Assembly: GCA_017507385.1 (NCBI GenBank)
Contig: JAFWAX010000032.1
Location: 1-64,000, forward strand
Direction: 5' to 3'
DNA: 64,000 bases
From: Bacteroidaceae bacterium
GTDB lineage: Bacteria > Bacteroidota > Bacteroidia > Bacteroidales > Bacteroidaceae
Both the position numbers and the translations under genes were made by a program. The notes beneath the pieces were generated by a model. That model had not been told where the DNA came from. It did not search any database and was given only the letters and a program-made list of their open reading frames with translations. Shown here one piece after another: positions 34,072 to 40,704 of this stretch (the stretch's first letter is position 1; each line of letters starts with the position of its first letter).

Positions 34072-34602
34072 TTACAGCTTAGTCATGTGGTAGCCCATTC
34101 TTTTCAACTGCATAGCAGCGCCAAACAGGTAAAGTTGGTGCAGACATGAGACATAAGCATTAAAAGCCTCCTTAGTTCCTGGCTCGATATTCTGATGACG
34201 AAGAGCATTGTAAACACGGGAAGCACATTCTCCAACCAGTTTCTCCAGCAAAGCATAGTCGTTCCCACTCAGCAAAAGCACCTCTTCACGAATATATTCA
34301 TCCATGCTGTCATAGCCTCGCTTATCCCTCATGTACACATATAAATCGTCTATTTTTGTATAAGATTCCCATTCCGTATCCCAAAACTTTGCGACAGCCA
34401 TGCCTATATACATCATCCAACCAAGTGAGGCAGACGGGAAATCATTAAATTCTCTTATCCCATCAGGGAGATAGGATTTGGCAATCTCCTCCCATCTATC
34501 TTCCATGTCAGGACACTCAGGCAGACGCTCATCCATCTCCTTTATCGCAAGGAGATAATGATGCAGGTCTTGGTGCAACTTATCTTCAAATGTCAGTTCC
34601 AT
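34072..34602 (-). CDS. Conserved hypothetical protein (Bacteroidales type)
   Basis: A 176-residue acidic, soluble, mostly helical protein without a signal peptide or recognised motif. Aromatic and Asp/Glu-rich stretches (LGWMMYIGMAVAKFWDTEW, then YDSMDEYIREEVLLL) and a Leu/Gln helix at the C-terminus suggest an all-alpha fold. I cannot assign a function. It marks the edge of the core chromosome before the accessory region. Confidence 0.7.
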   Translation of the reverse strand: MELTFEDKLHQDLHHYLLAIKEMDERLPECPDMEDRWEEIAKSYLPDGIREFNDFPSASLGWMMYIGMAVAKFWDTEWESYTKIDDLYVYMRDKRGYDSMDEYIREEVLLLSGNDYALLEKLVGECASRVYNALRHQNIEPGTKEAFNAYVSCLHQLYLFGAAMQLKRMGYHMTKL

Positions 34603-35262
34603 AATTATTTCTAAATATTATTGATTATATAAACTCCTATCTCAAAGGATTAAGCGGTCTCATATTTCTCTTAAAAGATAATCTCAAAGAAAGATATTTG
34701 ATTTCCCTTGGACAGATAAACAAAAGTACCAATAAATTCAGAAAAACTCAACCTTTCTATGAAAAATTTTACATATTGACGCATTTTGATGCTTACCTAT
34801 CAGAAACGCCTAACTCTATACTAAGGTTACGTTGCAAATGGCAAAATTATTAGTATTTCCCAATTTCCTGTTCGACTTTATACATATATTGACGTGGATG
34901 CACATATATAAATTCGCTGCCCATTGCTGCAGAAAAAGAAGAAAGGTGTAGAATAAATTTGAGGAAAATAAAAAACGATAGACCTAATCATCAGGTCACC
35001 TATTCAAACAATGGCAAAGAGGGTATTCCCCCTTGCCTTTGTCTTTTATCATATTTTCTTTCAACCTACATGAGTTCAGCGAAACAAAGTTCGGCATAAT
35101 TAATTTGTATTCCTTGCATTTCCTACATGCTCACCGTGTGCATAATATTTAAAACATCATGTTTGAAAAATTTCGCACACGGTTTATTAAACATTAAGTA
35201 GGCGGTAAGGACAAAATGAGATGAATTAAAGTTTAATCTCAATCCTTTTTCATCACAATTAT
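34603..35262. other. AT-rich non-coding stretch at the edge of the accessory island
   Basis: About 660 nt without a supportable gene. It contains a terminator-like hairpin (GGCAA..GGG / CCC..TTGCC, 35013-35036, then TTTGTCTTTT) and a nested palindrome (CCGTGTGC 35134-35141 with GCACACGG 35175-35182, with AAACAT/ATGTTT inside). These could be leftovers of an earlier insertion; no direct repeats or recombinase gene were found. Confidence 0.5.
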
Positions 35263-35293
35263 TTTGTATTCTCCCCACTTAATTGTAACTTTG
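35263..35293 (+). promoter_or_regulatory. Consensus promoter of the methyltransferase/nuclease module
   Basis: TTTG (35263-35266), exactly 19 nt, then TAACTTTG (35286-35293). Transcription should start near 35300, giving a leader of about 310 nt before the methyltransferase start. Confidence 0.75.
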
Positions 35294-35299
35294 CAATCA

Positions 35300-35600
35300 A
35301 GTATCGGCAAATCGTCACATCATGACGCTTGCAAAAGCAAGATGGAGCCTCGGCGGAGGTGCTGGTACGAACATATTAGAATTATTAACAAGCGTTTGCT
35401 GTTATTCGGAATTGCTTCAAGAACCTGAGAAATTCAAACAAGTCCAGTCCGAAAGAATAAGTCGCAAACGCCTATGCGTTTAGCATGGGCGTGACTTATC
35501 TGGACTGGTAGGCAATTCTCAGGGCCTTTGAAGCATGGATGATGAACGTCCGTGCTTTCTTTTGCCCTGTTGCCTACCTCCGAAGATAAGCACACGCAGA
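35300..35600 (+). ncRNA. Structured leader or non-coding RNA upstream of the methyltransferase
   Basis: Several strong stems are visible: CTTGC/GCAAG (35328-35341). A long compound hairpin is formed by AGTCCAG 35441-35447 with CTGGACT 35500-35506, ATAAGTC 35457-35463 with GACTTAT 35493-35499, and ACGCC..ATGC with GCAT..GGCGT closing on loop GTTTA. A second compound hairpin is formed by GGTAGGCAA 35507-35515 with TTGCCTACC 35570-35578, CAGGGC with GCCCTG, and AAGCATGGA with TCCGTGCTT followed by TCTTTT. CCTGAGAA (35424-35431) can pair with TTCTCAGG (35516-35523), competing with the second hairpin. This looks like an attenuator or switch, or an independent RNA; I do not recognise the class. Confidence 0.55.
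35322..35483 (+). CDS. Possible 53-codon leader ORF
   Basis: An ATG about 20 nt after the predicted transcription start opens 53 codons (beginning MTLAKARWSLGGGAGTN, ending RISRKRLCV). It overlaps the structured leader and ends inside the loop-side of the first compound hairpin. It has no known relatives that I can name. It may be a leader peptide or chance. Confidence 0.2.
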   Translation: MTLAKARWSLGGGAGTNILELLTSVCCYSELLQEPEKFKQVQSERISRKRLCV

Positions 35601-35611
35601 AAGTATGGCCT

Positions 35612-36718
35612 ATGGCAAATACAAACCTTGCTAACGCAAAGAATGCGAAGAACGACGAGTTCTACACACAGTATGCTGACATTCAAAAGGAAATAAACGC
35701 CTATCTGGATTATAACCCCGATGTGTTTCGTGACAAGACGGTACTCTTACCATGCGATGACCCCGAATGGAGCAACTTCACAAAGTTCTTTGCACAGAAC
35801 TTTGAGCTGCTGGGCTTGAAAAAGCTGATTTCCACCAGTTATGCACCAGATTCGAAGAAGTTCAAGGCTGGTTACCAACTCACACTCTTTGAGACGGAAG
35901 CACCTCAATTTGACCCGCAAAAGACCCAAACACACGGAAAGATTTTTGTTTTAAATCGTGATGTAACTAGTGACAACCGCATTGACATAAACGACTTGCA
36001 ATGGCAATACTTGGAGGGTGACGGGGATTTCCGCAGCAATGAGATTAAAGCACTCAGGGATAAGGCAGACATTATAGTGACCAATCCTCCTTTTTCGCTA
36101 TTTAGAGAGTTTATGGCATGGATTATGGATGCAAGAAAGAAGTTTTTGATTATCGGAAACATGAATGCCATTACTTACAAAGAAGTATTTCCTCTCATCA
36201 AGGATAATCTTGTTTGGCTTGGAGCGACAGGATTCGTTACAGATATGGTGTTTGGTGTCCCCAAAGGAACTATTGTTAAAGAAAGTGATAAAAAGAAAGC
36301 GGAGCGCCTTGGTTATGTTGGTGATTACACCCGACTGGGAAATTCATGCTGGTTTACTAATATTGACCATGGAAGACGACATCGGCCACAGCAATTAATG
36401 ACGATGGAAGAAAACCTTAAGCATAGCAAACATAAGGTCATTCGAGAAAATAAAAAATATGATAAATACGACAATTATGATGCAATAGAAATAGCATATT
36501 CTGACGCGATTCCATGTGACTATACAGAAGCGATGGGAGTGCCCATATCATTCATTGACAGATATTGTCCAGAACAATTTGAAATACTTGGAGCATCTGA
36601 AAGTGAGGGAAAAGGCTTTTCCAATGGATTATGGAAAGAAGAAAGTGGAATAGCCCAACCCTTAGTAAAAGGAGAGAAAATATACAAAAGATTGTTTATC
36701 AAAAAGAAAGAAGCATGA
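35612..36718 (+). CDS. Adenine-specific DNA methyltransferase, EcoRI family
   Basis: This 368-residue protein resembles M.EcoRI-type N6-adenine methyltransferases. The N-terminal ANAKNAKNDEFYTQYADIQKEI and the segment VLLPCDDPEWSNFTKFF are typical of the family, with DIIVTNPPFSLFREF carrying the catalytic NPPF motif (158-161). The start at 35612 gives this N-terminus; the ATG at 35552 would begin inside the structured leader. The stop overlaps the next start by ATGA. Methylation of adenine within a short palindrome is the expected activity; the recognition site is unknown. Confidence 0.9.
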   Translation: MANTNLANAKNAKNDEFYTQYADIQKEINAYLDYNPDVFRDKTVLLPCDDPEWSNFTKFFAQNFELLGLKKLISTSYAPDSKKFKAGYQLTLFETEAPQFDPQKTQTHGKIFVLNRDVTSDNRIDINDLQWQYLEGDGDFRSNEIKALRDKADIIVTNPPFSLFREFMAWIMDARKKFLIIGNMNAITYKEVFPLIKDNLVWLGATGFVTDMVFGVPKGTIVKESDKKKAERLGYVGDYTRLGNSCWFTNIDHGRRHRPQQLMTMEENLKHSKHKVIRENKKYDKYDNYDAIEIAYSDAIPCDYTEAMGVPISFIDRYCPEQFEILGASESEGKGFSNGLWKEESGIAQPLVKGEKIYKRLFIKKKEA

Positions 36719-37884
36719 AAACCACACTAGAAATATATACTGTTAAGCAGATTTGCGACGGCTTCGAATATAATGAACTAGAAGGAAAAGGTCTGTATGG
36801 CTTGGCCGGTCAATTGACCATTCAGCCTGAATATCAGCGCAACTACATCTATGCAGATGGAAAGAAAGACGTAGCTGTGATAGAGTCGGTATTGAAAGGC
36901 TATCCTCTGGGATTACTTTACTTCAACAAAGTAGAGGACAGACGTTTGGAAGTGCTGGATGGACAGCAACGCATCACTTCATTAGGACGTTTTATCAAAA
37001 ATAAATTTGCCGTACAACAGAATGGCATGGAACAAATCTTTGATGGATTAAACAAGGAGAAGCAACAAAAAATACTCAATACGGAATTACTCGTATACAT
37101 CTGTGAGGGTGAGGGTGACAACGCAGAGGAGGAAATCAAGGAGTGGTTTAAGACCATCAACATTGCAGGCATTCCATTGAACAAACAAGAGGAATTGAAT
37201 GCTGTTTATAGCGGAAAATTCGTCACGCTATGCAAGGCTGAGTTCAGCAACTCGCAGAATGCCAACATTCAAAAATGGGAATCATACGTAAAAGGCCCTG
37301 CCAATCGTCAGCAATTCTTGGCTACAGCTTTGGAATGGGTGAGTAAAGGGAATGTGGACGGTTATATGTCTGCCCATCGCCACGACGAGAACATCAACGA
37401 GATTAAAACTTACTTCAACACGGTGATTGACTGGGTGGACAGCAAGTTCGATGATGTGTATAATGAAATGCAGGGCTTGAACTGGGGCGAACTGTATGAG
37501 CGTTTCCACAACCAGCCGTTGAATCACGCAAAACTGTCGCAAGAAGTACGTGAATTGATACAAGACGATTATGTTACCAATAGGAAAGGCATCTTCGAGT
37601 ATGTGCTCGGAGGTTGTCTAGACACAAAGCTATTGAATATACGCTTATTCGACAAAACAACTATGCGTAAAGTATATCAACAACAGACCGAAAAAGCTAA
37701 AGTACAGAAAGTTTCCAATTGTCCCTATTGTGCCATTGGTCATGATGCCAATTTCCAACGCATTTGGAAACAAGAGGAAATGGATGCTGACCATGTAGCG
37801 GCATGGAGCAAAGGCGGAAGTACGGACATCAAGAACTGTCAAATGTTGTGCAAGACACATAATAGAGCAAAAGGGAATAAATAA
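36715..37884 (+). CDS. DUF262 plus HNH endonuclease
   Basis: This 389-residue protein has an N-terminal DUF262 (ParB/sulfiredoxin-like nucleotide-dependent) domain with IQPEYQRNYIYADGKKD and LEVLDGQQRITSLGRF (DGQQR at 82-86), and a C-terminal HNH domain with CPYCAIGH, then ADHVAAWSKGGSTDIKNCQMLCKTHNRAKGNK. The architecture is that of GmrSD-like and related anti-phage nucleases. Translation is coupled to the methyltransferase through a 4-nt overlap, so it is the likely restriction partner in place of an EcoRI-type endonuclease. Confidence 0.88.
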   Translation: MKTTLEIYTVKQICDGFEYNELEGKGLYGLAGQLTIQPEYQRNYIYADGKKDVAVIESVLKGYPLGLLYFNKVEDRRLEVLDGQQRITSLGRFIKNKFAVQQNGMEQIFDGLNKEKQQKILNTELLVYICEGEGDNAEEEIKEWFKTINIAGIPLNKQEELNAVYSGKFVTLCKAEFSNSQNANIQKWESYVKGPANRQQFLATALEWVSKGNVDGYMSAHRHDENINEIKTYFNTVIDWVDSKFDDVYNEMQGLNWGELYERFHNQPLNHAKLSQEVRELIQDDYVTNRKGIFEYVLGGCLDTKLLNIRLFDKTTMRKVYQQQTEKAKVQKVSNCPYCAIGHDANFQRIWKQEEMDADHVAAWSKGGSTDIKNCQMLCKTHNRAKGNK

Positions 37885-37920: not shown

Positions 37921-37953
37921 CATAAAAAAGGAGTTGCACACAATGCAACTCCT
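37921..37953 (-). terminator. Terminator downstream of valS, also facing the DUF262 gene
   Basis: AGGAGTTGCA (37929-37938) pairs perfectly with TGCAACTCCT (37944-37953). On the minus strand it is followed by TTTTTT, ending valS; on the plus strand only a weak T-rich tail follows. Confidence 0.85.
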
Positions 37954-37971
37954 TCATATTTAAGATTATAT

Positions 37972-40704
37972 TTATTTCTTGAGCTTTGCAATGCTTTCCG
38001 TCAGAGCGGCAATCTTTGTTTCGGCATCACTTTGTTTCTTGCGTTCCAACTCTACCACTTGGGCAGGTGCGTTGGCTACGAAACGTTCGTTGGAGAGTTT
38101 CTTCTGCACGCCCACGAGGAAGCCCTGCAGGTGCTTCAGCTCTGCTTCCATCTTTTGGATTTCAGCTTCCGTGTCAATCAAGTTGCCCAACTGAACAGCA
38201 TATTCAGTTGTTCCCAACATGAAGGCAGAAGTGCCGTCGCTCTTAGCCTGAACATTCTGAATCTCAGCAAGTGAAGCCATCTTCTTGATGATTGCGTTAA
38301 GGGCTGGACACGGGGTTACGTTTTTACCAGCATCTGCGGACTGAACAATCTCAAGGGTGAGAGGTTCACGTGGAGAGATGTTCTTGCTCTGACGAACTGC
38401 ACGCACTCCTGAGATAATCTGCTTAGCCTCTTCATACTGTGCCATGAGCTGCGCATCTTCTGCTGTTGGCGCATCAAGCACAAGCGTGTCAACCATGATG
38501 CTTTCGCCACCCTTGCGCTCTGCGATGTGCTGATAGAGCTCTTCGGTGATGAATGGCATGAAAGGATGAATAATTTTCATCAACTGCTCAAAGAACTGGA
38601 GAGTTGCCTTGAATGTTGCGGCATCAATAGGTGCCTGATATGCAGGTTTAATCATTTCAAGATACCAGCCAGAGAACTCATCGGTAAATAACTTGAATAC
38701 AGCCATTAGCGCCTCGTTGAGACGATACTTAGAGTAGAGGTCATTGATTTCTGCCACCGCAGTCTTAATAACTGCTTCCATCCATGCAATGGTTCTCTTG
38801 TTCTCCATAGGCTGTTCCAATGTCTCTGCAACCTCCCAGCCCTTCACCAGTCGGAAGGCATTCCAAATCTTGTTGCAGAATGCTGCACCCTGCTGACAGA
38901 GCTGCTCATCGAAGAGGATGTCATTTCCTGCTGGTGCAGAGAGAAGCATACCCATACGCACACCGTCTGCTCCATACTTGTCAATCAACCCAAGCGGATC
39001 TGGTGAATTACCAAGTGATTTTGACATCTTACGACCAAGTTTGTCTCGTACAATACCAGTAAAATACACATTGCGGAAAGGAACATCTTTCATATACTCC
39101 TCACCTGCCATAATCATACGAGCAACCCAGAAGAAGATGATATCTGGTCCAGTAACAAGGTCGGCTGTTGGATAATAGTAACTAATTTCCTCATTTCCTG
39201 GATTGTTGATACCATCAAACAGAGAAACTGGCCAAAGCCATGAAGAGAACCATGTGTCGAGTGCATCTTCATCGCGAACAAGCTGATCTATGGTGATATT
39301 CTCATAGCCTGATATTTTCTTGGCTTCTTCCAACGCCTCTTCTGCTGTAAAGGCAACTACAAACTTCTCCTCTTCCCCCTCAGTTGTTGGCAGGAAGTAA
39401 GCCGGGATGCGATGTCCCCACCATAGCTGACGGCTGATGCACCAATCCTGAATATTCTCGAGCCAGTTACGGTATGTTGTGACATATTTTGTCGGATAGA
39501 ACTTAATTTTACCTTCAAGAACAGGAGGAAGGGCAATGTCGGCAAAATGCTTCATTGAGAGGAACCACTGCTTGCAGAGGCGTGGTTCAACAGCTGTATC
39601 CTGATTACGCTCCGAGTAGCCCACTTTATTGTCATAGTCTTCAACCTTTTCCAGCAGAGATGCCTCCTGAAGGTCGATGGCAATCTGCTTGCGTACATCC
39701 ATACGGTCTTCCCCAACATAAAGTCCAGCAGCCTCAGAGAGCGTTCCATCGGGATTGAATATGTCGATTGTCTCAAGATTATGAGTCTTGCCAAGTGCGT
39801 AGTCGTTTACGTCGTGAGCAGGGGTAACCTTCAGACAGCCAGTTCCGAATTCGATGTCAACATAGCGGTCCTCAATGACAGGAATGACACGGTTAACTAA
39901 CGGGACAACAACCTTATGTCCACGAAGCCATTGATTCTTAGGATCCTTAGGGTTCACACACATCGCCGTGTCACCCATTATTGTTTCAGGACGCGTGGTG
40001 GCAACAACGGCATAATATCTACCATTTTCATCCTGATGAATTACCTCACCCTCTTCGCCAGATGGGCATACAGGATTAGTGTCGGCATCAGCCACATAGT
40101 AACGAAGATGATAAAGTTTACTCTTCTCATCACGATATATGACCTCTTCCGTAGAAAGAACGGTCTGAGCCTTTGGGTCCCAGTTCACCATGCGGAGTCC
40201 ACGATAAATTAGTCCCTTTTTGTAGAGATCAACAAACACCTTGAGAACACTCTCACTACGAAGTTCGTCCATTGTGAAAGCAGTACGGTCCCAATCGCAA
40301 GATGCGCCCAAACGACGTAACTGTTTAAGGATAATACCTCCGTGTTCGTCAGTCCATTCCCATGCGTGCTTGAGGAATTCCTCACGTGTAAGGTCACGCT
40401 TCTTGATGCCCTGCTCTGCAAGACGATTCACCACCTTTGCCTCGGTTGCAATAGAAGCATGGTCTGTTCCAGGCACCCAGCAAGCATTCTTTCCATCTAT
40501 GCGTGCCTTACGGATAAGAATGTCCTGAATGGTGTTGTTGAGCATGTGTCCCATGTGAAGTACACCTGTCACATTTGGGGGAGGGATCACAATGGTGTAT
40601 GGCTGGCGGCCATCGGGCTTACTTGCAAACAGTTTGTGGTCAATCCAATACTGGTACCACTTGCCCTCTACTTCAGAAGGATTATAATTTTTTGCTAATT
40701 CCAT
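37972..40704 (-). CDS. valS: Valyl-tRNA synthetase
   Basis: This 910-residue class I synthetase has the HIGH motif HMGHMLNN (near residue 50), a full editing domain (about 170-380), the KMSKS motif [16 protein letters not shown] and a C-terminal coiled-coil arm (about 840-910, Lys/Glu-rich) that is characteristic of ValRS. The start [20 protein letters not shown] is standard. It lies 18 nt after the permease gene upstream, so they may share a transcript. Confidence 0.97.

Follow-up and report, generated by a model that had tools for sequence, protein, structure and literature searches.

The first 64,000 nucleotides (nt) of contig JAFWAX010000032.1 (Bacteroidaceae bacterium, GenBank assembly GCA_017507385.1), hereafter the window, carry a two-gene module consisting of an EcoRI-type adenine methyltransferase (M) and a nuclease (R) that joins a DUF262 domain to an HNH domain (Table 1). 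The R start codon overlaps the M stop codon (ATGA, a 4-nt overlap), and both genes stand behind a candidate promoter and a structured 5′ leader. An earlier note on this DNA had described two genes, one promoter and a structured leader, and open reading frames (ORFs), Pfam domains, promoter motifs and covariation in the leader bear out that description. Here, we report that two cassettes of M, V1 and V2, shuffle independently of R, and we lean toward reading the pair as a two-gene restriction-modification (RM) system in which M would be both modification enzyme and specificity subunit and R the effector.

Table 1. Features of the M-R module, with positions in the window
Feature	Position	Strand	Basis or remark
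Putative Bacteroidetes-type promoter	35262..35293	+	-33 TTTTG 35262-35266; -7 TAACTTTG 35286-35293; read from sequence
Structured 5′ leader RNA, ~310 nt	35300..35611	+	covariance-model R1 match 35347-35604
Segment A	35391..35410	+	partner is either B (35464-35471 and upstream) or D
P1 5′ strand, CCTGAGA	35424..35430	+	covariation
Segments B and C with intervening hairpin (P3/P4)	35457..35500	+	covariation
P1 3′ strand, TCTCAGG	35517..35523	+	pseudoknotted with A:B
Hairpin P5, then U-rich tract (terminator-like)	35533..35563	+	covariation
Segment D	35579..35597	+	14 nt before the M ATG in the window
M, EcoRI-type adenine methyltransferase	35612..36718	+	ORF, 368 residues; Pfam EcoRI_methylase (PF13651), 6e-121, residues 5-366
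NPPF motif of M	residues 158-161	+	alignment
V1, first exchangeable cassette of M	36212..36331, residues 201-240	+	identity profile of M
V2, second exchangeable cassette of M	36572..36715, residues 321-368	+	identity profile of M
R, DUF262-HNH nuclease	36715..37884	+	ORF, 389 residues; GmrSD_N/DUF262 (PF03235), 1e-19; HNH (PF01844), 3e-8
DGQQR motif, DUF262/ParB-like domain of R	36958..36972, residues 82-86	+	invariant in 23 aligned sequences
HNH domain of R	37720..37881, residues 336-389	+	Pfam and alignment

Co-occurrence of M and R

When R was used to scan genomes, 85 relatives came up and 80 loci were retained; with the window, these make up the 81 loci used below. They lie mostly in Bacteroidales (many from the rumen) and also in Pelagibacteraceae, Patescibacteria and Clostridiales, and annotations place the pair on Actinomycetota, Bacilli and Proteobacteria plasmids as well. 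M was present upstream of R in 77 of the 80 R loci; two of the three loci lacking it were ended by a contig boundary, and in the third (L048) R lies 786 nt into its contig. The genes were separated by at most 40 nt in 49 of 60 intact loci (window included), 22 of which had the same 4-nt overlap, and by a larger gap in 11, exceeding 300 nt in 10 of these. Other genes insert at the M-R junction: in the eight loci whose inserts were inspected (L007, L010, L019, L022, L023, L029, L041 and L070), genes oriented in the same direction and tightly packed lay between M and R, with families including ORF6N, DUF1016/YhcG PDDEXK nuclease, Fic and unassigned proteins. No relative of R was found on viral contigs in a search for close relatives.

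From the M side, EcoRI_methylase was matched 22 times in a scan of 149 Bacteroidales genomes, 19 of which were positive, and R was in the locus at 16 of the 22 matches (window included). An EcoRI-type endonuclease, which the earlier note took to be the normal partner, replaced R at two matches (L231 by Pfam, L236 by resemblance), and its family passed the cut-off in 2 of 395 Bacteroidota genomes in a separate sample, so that here the supposed norm is the exception. The remaining matches were the second piece of the L236 gene (L242), a partial match (L238) and two below the cut-off (L240 and L243). The note had staked its proposal on the two genes being found together elsewhere, as they are; it had also suggested that the pair would be unusual if methylation blocks the nuclease, a label that does not survive this degree of linkage or the existence of PADLOC models for both proteins. 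M matches a Type II methyltransferase model and R a Type II restriction enzyme model over its full length, and the pair is therefore already annotated as a candidate restriction system.

Two further observations concern individual loci. The EcoRI-type methyltransferase gene of L236/L242 (G335:C101) is broken by a transposase-like frame, with the neighboring endonuclease open, and a DUF262-paired methyltransferase (L250) lies on a Macrococcoides canis plasmid, with a gene annotated as mef(F) approximately 1 kb away.

Exchangeable cassettes of M and the role of R

Identity of M to the window was about 0.9 over residues 1-80 and dropped to 0.27-0.41 in V1 and 0.23-0.41 in V2; for R, it averaged 0.80, with a minimum of 0.56 (residues 261-280). 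Across the 60 intact loci, mean pairwise identity was 0.28 for V1, 0.39 for V2, 0.69-0.89 for other M segments and 0.79 for R. Neither cassette tracked R or the other cassette closely. R tracked residues 1-200 of M in these loci (r = 0.84), and with the relatedness of the M core removed, correlation with R was 0.017 for V1 (p = 0.35) and -0.10 for V2 (p = 0.91). Among 54 locus pairs with R more than 92% identical, V1 was below 50% in 47, V2 in 41 and either one in 51. In L032/L033, R identity rounds to 1.00 at V1 0.38 and V2 0.32, and in L015/L020, R is 0.99 at V1 0.12 and V2 0.32. Clustering at 55% identity gave 12 V1 types and 17 V2 types, with 26 combinations in the 49 M typed for both (pattern typing was unsuccessful for V1 in 14 of 65 M and for V2 in 3 of 65). 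Distant M share cassette types as well: the V2 type of the window is present in L084 and L098, although in each case M is 48% identical to the window's M.

Other lineages and gene forms extend this picture. In the closer members of a second subfamily, R was 75-88% and V2 20-33% identical, except for L216/L217, with V2 at 79%, and plasmid loci of Actinomycetota and Bacilli partly repeat the cassette variation beside R. Two M frames of 486 and 472 residues (L007:1938-3395 and L019:1579-2994) hold tandem V2 cassettes, the first of which is the window's V2 type in both; the tandem V2 is possibly a spare or a recombination intermediate. A V2-anchor search of the 81 loci found two anchors in these loci (both within M), one in 69 and zero in 10, where the pattern was too strict or M was missing. 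We infer that V1 and V2 are cassettes that read the DNA target.

As a control, six M beside EcoRI-type endonucleases were taken from Bacteroidota, Escherichia coli and Leuconostoc; the endonucleases were annotated (L247 and L248), identified by Pfam (L231 and L244) or a PF02963 search (L245), or recognized by resemblance (L236). An EcoRI-type pair from Rhodococcus (L249, M not extracted) was left out, as was L236 for V2 (broken gene). EcoRI-partnered M keep their cassettes nearly frozen: at core identities of 0.58-0.88, none of the 15 V1 pairs fell below 0.70 and none of the 10 V2 pairs below 0.77. For DUF262-HNH-paired M with cores at 0.7-0.9, V1 exceeded 0.6 in 241 of 1,866 pairs and V2 in 299 of 1,866. 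If R had a recognition of its own, M could not freely change its cassettes, and EcoRI-partnered M behave in just that way. Because the cassettes shuffle beside a constant R and stay nearly frozen with EcoRI-type partners, M probably supplies the sequence specificity of R, a Type I/BREX (bacteriophage exclusion)-like logic in two genes. An EcoRI-like V1 in the R-paired M of L256 and L257 and an EcoRI-like V2 in L216 and L217 mean that cassettes of partly known meaning occur in the M-R system; the target of the EcoRI methyltransferase is GAATTC, and cassettes held in common with it allow half-site predictions.

The earlier note had offered a choice between a nuclease blocked by methylation and one activated by it; this misses the strongest clue, that M cassettes are exchanged while R is unchanged, which points to a third logic and fits M as specificity subunit for R. 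In an ordinary Type II system, R itself would recognize the site of M, and the differences in V1 and V2 would leave that site unchanged. The PADLOC models and the close M-R linkage are what such a system would give, but V1 can be as little as 12% identical beside R at 99% (L015/L020) and M beside EcoRI-type endonucleases retain both cassettes, and we consider this account improbable. An R of little sequence specificity is unlikely too: its DUF262 domain would sense methylation state or M activity generally, and specificity would lie in the pattern of M marks, with no complex formed. The constancy of R across cassettes suits this account, as does the nucleoside triphosphate (NTP) requirement of GmrSD cleavage given in excerpts of PMC4619093; the objection, an argument only, is that self-cutting would be hard to avoid at the many sites for which there is no methylating V1/V2 combination.

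The domains of R bear on two further alternatives. Pfam returned PF03235, PF01844 and a sub-threshold HNH_5 match on R and nothing further; DUF1524 (GmrD) was not found in R by Pfam, with HNH PF01844 in its place, and PF02963 (EcoRI endonuclease) was found neither in R nor in the genome of the window, which is 78% complete. No helicase or translocase domain was found by Pfam in M or R. The HNH residues D359-H360, N374, H382-N383 and K386 were invariant in the 23 aligned R sequences, and NPPF was invariant in the alignment of M. The predicted fold of R (mean predicted local distance difference test score, 81; predicted template modeling score, 0.58) showed weak likeness to BrxU (ranked first), ParB/Noc, sulfiredoxin (Srx) and an HNH nicking enzyme, and a PDB sequence search gave no useful relatives.

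R could instead be a Type IV, modification-dependent nuclease directed against foreign modified DNA, with the neighboring M masking or marking host DNA. We think this improbable, since its second domain is PF01844 rather than DUF1524, the tight linkage to M and the ATGA coupling would be left unexplained and, to our knowledge, GmrSD enzymes act without a partner methyltransferase. In its favor, the fold search puts BrxU first, and excerpts of two sources (PMC4619093 and PMC12707154) give DUF262 as the fold of GmrSD, BrxU and SspE. Finally, M could act mainly in epigenetic regulation while exchanging cassettes, R being secondary or decaying. M was not intact by our criteria in 16 of the 81 loci (window included), partly owing to contig ends, and genes are inserted between M and R in some loci; R is nonetheless the better conserved partner, and with its catalytic residues invariant we regard this account as very improbable.

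Returning to M as the subunit that programs R, M would read its target through V1 and V2 and methylate that target in host DNA, and the constant R would have no matched recognition of its own. M positioned at an unmethylated target would recruit or license R, whose ParB/Srx-fold DGQQR domain (NTP) would serve as the switch and whose HNH domain would cut. A cassette swap would change modification and restriction together and would therefore be survivable. The operon would have its own promoter, and expression would run through a bistable leader RNA containing a terminator-like hairpin; the leader would most likely set the level of the whole operon. A physical M-R complex, NTP use and DNA cleavage by R and attenuation by the leader would all be expected.

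Several points weigh against this interpretation. The nuclease may sense unmethylated or M-bound sites without contacting M, and no fold match for R reached E ≤ 0.001. The control set is small, at six M, and the locus pairs in the cassette counts are not independent. Without removal of the core, correlation with R was weakly positive for V1 (0.118, p = 0.017) and V2 (0.156, p = 0.041), as shared ancestry predicts; that between V1 and V2 was likewise weakly positive before core removal (0.097, p = 0.010). Close members of the second subfamily are 74-97% identical in V1, with a more distant member (L219) differing in V1 too. The target-cassette label comes from variability, position after NPPF and comparison with EcoRI, and not from structure.

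The leader RNA and its surroundings

The leader alignment held 34 sequences, nine from R loci and 25 from a DNA search of the window's family (32 of 301 genomes positive). Its covariation score was 0.339 versus 0.196 in shuffles, 0 of 500 of which were as high, although relatedness alone can push covariation above such shuffles and the alignment also guided the structure. Sliding helix partners by 1-3 columns reduced paired cells from 91-94% to 33-46%. P1 retained all 7 of its pairs in each of the 34 sequences, a single pair showing as many as 19 double changes, and the first A:B helix was paired in 96% of cells with double changes in 4 of 8 pairs (continuation, 85% and 78%). The A:D helices (85-98% of cells paired) and the B:C helices are mutually exclusive with A:B. 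P5 was paired in 90% of cells, with double changes in 6 of 8 pairs, and was not reported by a terminator scan with a loop limit of 8. Judged from this layout, the leader may be an attenuator or bistable switch, a tentative reading to which we give slightly less than even confidence; the main alternative is a trans-acting RNA.

No Rfam 15 model lay over the leader in the window or in 32 other loci, and its identification as a known RNA was rejected. The earlier note saw correctly that the leader is long and structured but did not recognize it as an RNA family. A small gene was rejected as well, as six relatives do not preserve the 53-residue frame that the window has from 35322. In L178, the leader match (56-310) shares its final 21 nt with an Rfam DUF805 RNA match (290-355), and a second DUF805 RNA lies at 1254-1322.

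With up to five candidates scored in each genome, covariance model R1 had matches at E ≤ 0.001 in 119 of 393 Bacteroidales genomes, counting the window's own. In a phylum-wide sample it matched 18 of the 295 other genomes (E ≤ 1e-4), and a fuller examination of eight genomes gave 3-15 matches in each (E ≤ 0.01). Outside the window's family, 68 matches scored at least 60 bits; several share genomes and are not independent. The first downstream gene was a restriction methyltransferase in 25 (L155 assigned via a near-identical start to L119, and L148 via a weak truncated match), another defense-like gene in 2 (L115, with a DarT domain, and L169, an SNF2-type helicase like PLD-helicase L147), a small helix-turn-helix (HTH) protein in 4 and another gene in 34, with no frame in 2 and 1 not fetched. 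The count of 25 may be low, because 8 of the 34 other genes were family-scanned and the rest judged from the frame start. Restriction methyltransferases followed 21 of 39 matches at ≥70 bits and 4 of 29 at 60-70 bits; R1 was built mostly from restriction-gene leaders, which favors such leaders at high scores. The leader-preceded enzymes were MmeI-like, HsdM, C5, EcoRI-type, HSDR_N-N6 fusions and Type III, and training bias alone does not explain such unrelated families. As background, eight genomes of 2.2-4.2 Mb held 48 N6_Mtase matches, and all methyltransferase families together are estimated at less than about 1% of genes. A wider picture, taken as a whole, is doubtful: two mix-and-match M cassettes would program the constant DUF262-HNH effector, so that few parts yield many specificities, and a Bacteroidota-wide leader sensing a ligand or a state would govern this system and be shared by unrelated RM types (I, II, IIG and III), making the RNA a point of common control for DNA defense.

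Three wider roles were considered for the leader. As an obligate part of the M-R pair it was rejected: 14 of the 81 loci, including 9 that contributed to the model, had an R1 match at E ≤ 0.001. Of 13 weaker matches at R loci, 10 also lay within approximately 350 nt upstream of M, and in some R loci an ORF of at least 130 residues (mechanically called) ends at most 110 nt upstream of M, with little room for a leader. As a restriction-specific element it was also rejected, with weaker matches preceding secreted-looking proteins, acyltransferases and small HTH proteins. As a phage- or plasmid-borne element it was likewise rejected: a 401-nt query gave no plasmid or phage match at E 1e-5, and the exact 19-nt leader core had no match in viral contigs, where diverged copies may still occur.

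Weaker matches (55 to 25 bits) occurred at five sites in the window's own genome, G000 (C1:3977-4218, C7:25178-25511, C60:97101-97445, C81:59845-60089 and C26:26890-27100); by our ORF reading, the downstream gene is glycosyltransferase-like at C1, a small HTH protein at C7 and NusG/UpxY-like, 127 nt on, at C60. A small HTH-like protein of 70-90 residues recurs directly behind leader matches in several genomes (L117, L122, L127, L154, L168, L177 and L202). Outside the order, the leader occurs once or twice per positive genome (E ≤ 1e-4; L260-L270), before secreted-looking or unknown proteins, and for that reason its ancestral role may not be defense.

We class the stretch at 35262-35293 as a promoter on the basis of the Bacteroidetes consensus and expect transcription of the operon to start at about 35300; a sigma-70-type promoter scan of the window did not report it. 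The -7 motif TAnnTTTG was present 25-140 nt (mostly 20-80 nt) before the leader-model start in 48 of 80 related leaders, whereas mononucleotide shuffles averaged 6.6 and never exceeded 15. A 33-nt match to the promoter occurs elsewhere in the same genome directly before another ORF, which we take to be pyrH, and the promoter stretch is therefore generic.

The module is flanked upstream by a minus-strand ORF (34072-34602) and downstream by a convergent minus-strand ORF of 910 residues (37972-40704), presumably valyl-tRNA synthetase. Upstream of the promoter, an inverted repeat at 35133-35183, with 25-nt arms that are 84% complementary around a 1-nt loop, may act as a terminator or binding site, and a minus-strand terminator-like hairpin (37927-37955) lies between R and the convergent ORF.

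Meaning and comparison with known systems

The M-R pair itself is already known as an annotation. What looks new as far as checked is the cassette logic and the covarying leader family, both undescribed in titles and abstract openings among the matches listed from the open-license PMC literature. If M programs R, exchange of cassettes about 40 residues long would give a small two-gene system new specificities. This would explain how specificity can evolve in such systems without suicide and would provide an easily reprogrammed nuclease. If the leader regulates many restriction systems at once, DNA defense in a major gut phylum would be under common RNA control; the timing of RM expression on entering a new host is a long-standing question.

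The DUF805 RNA of Rfam is likewise a 5′ leader element, and its match overlaps the leader end in L178, but it does not match the leader itself. JUMPstart and UpxY-controlled leaders are further 5′ leader elements. In the searched text of PMC12707154, hairpins and antisense RNAs that restrict access to restriction endonuclease starts are mentioned, and the terms "riboswitch," "leader" and "attenuat-" are absent.

M of the window shares with the EcoRI system its Pfam family and the V1/V2 layout; its nuclease partner is DUF262-HNH rather than PF02963, and its cassettes shuffle rather than stay nearly frozen. Like GmrSD, BrxU and SspE, R carries DUF262 with DGQQR and a His-Me-finger nuclease domain in one protein; unlike these, described for GmrSD in excerpts of PMC4619093 as DUF262 plus DUF1524, it has 389 residues and a PF01844 HNH domain and sits in an RM-like operon, coupled to a methyltransferase. 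LlaJI, in the excerpted text of PMC12707154, also places a Type IV-related (McrBC-like) nuclease with methyltransferases to act on unmodified DNA, but it reads its site by a B3 domain, whereas Pfam finds no further domain in R. A parallel in logic is seen with Type I RM and BREX (PglX), in which, by the same excerpts, exchangeable target readers sit on the modification side and one effector serves many specificities, the BREX methyltransferase being termed "master of ceremonies" (PMC12707154). The M-R system differs in having two genes, an EcoRI-type M, no separate S subunit and no helicase or translocase found; the role proposed for M would nevertheless be comparable to that of HsdS/HsdM or BREX PglX in serving their effectors.

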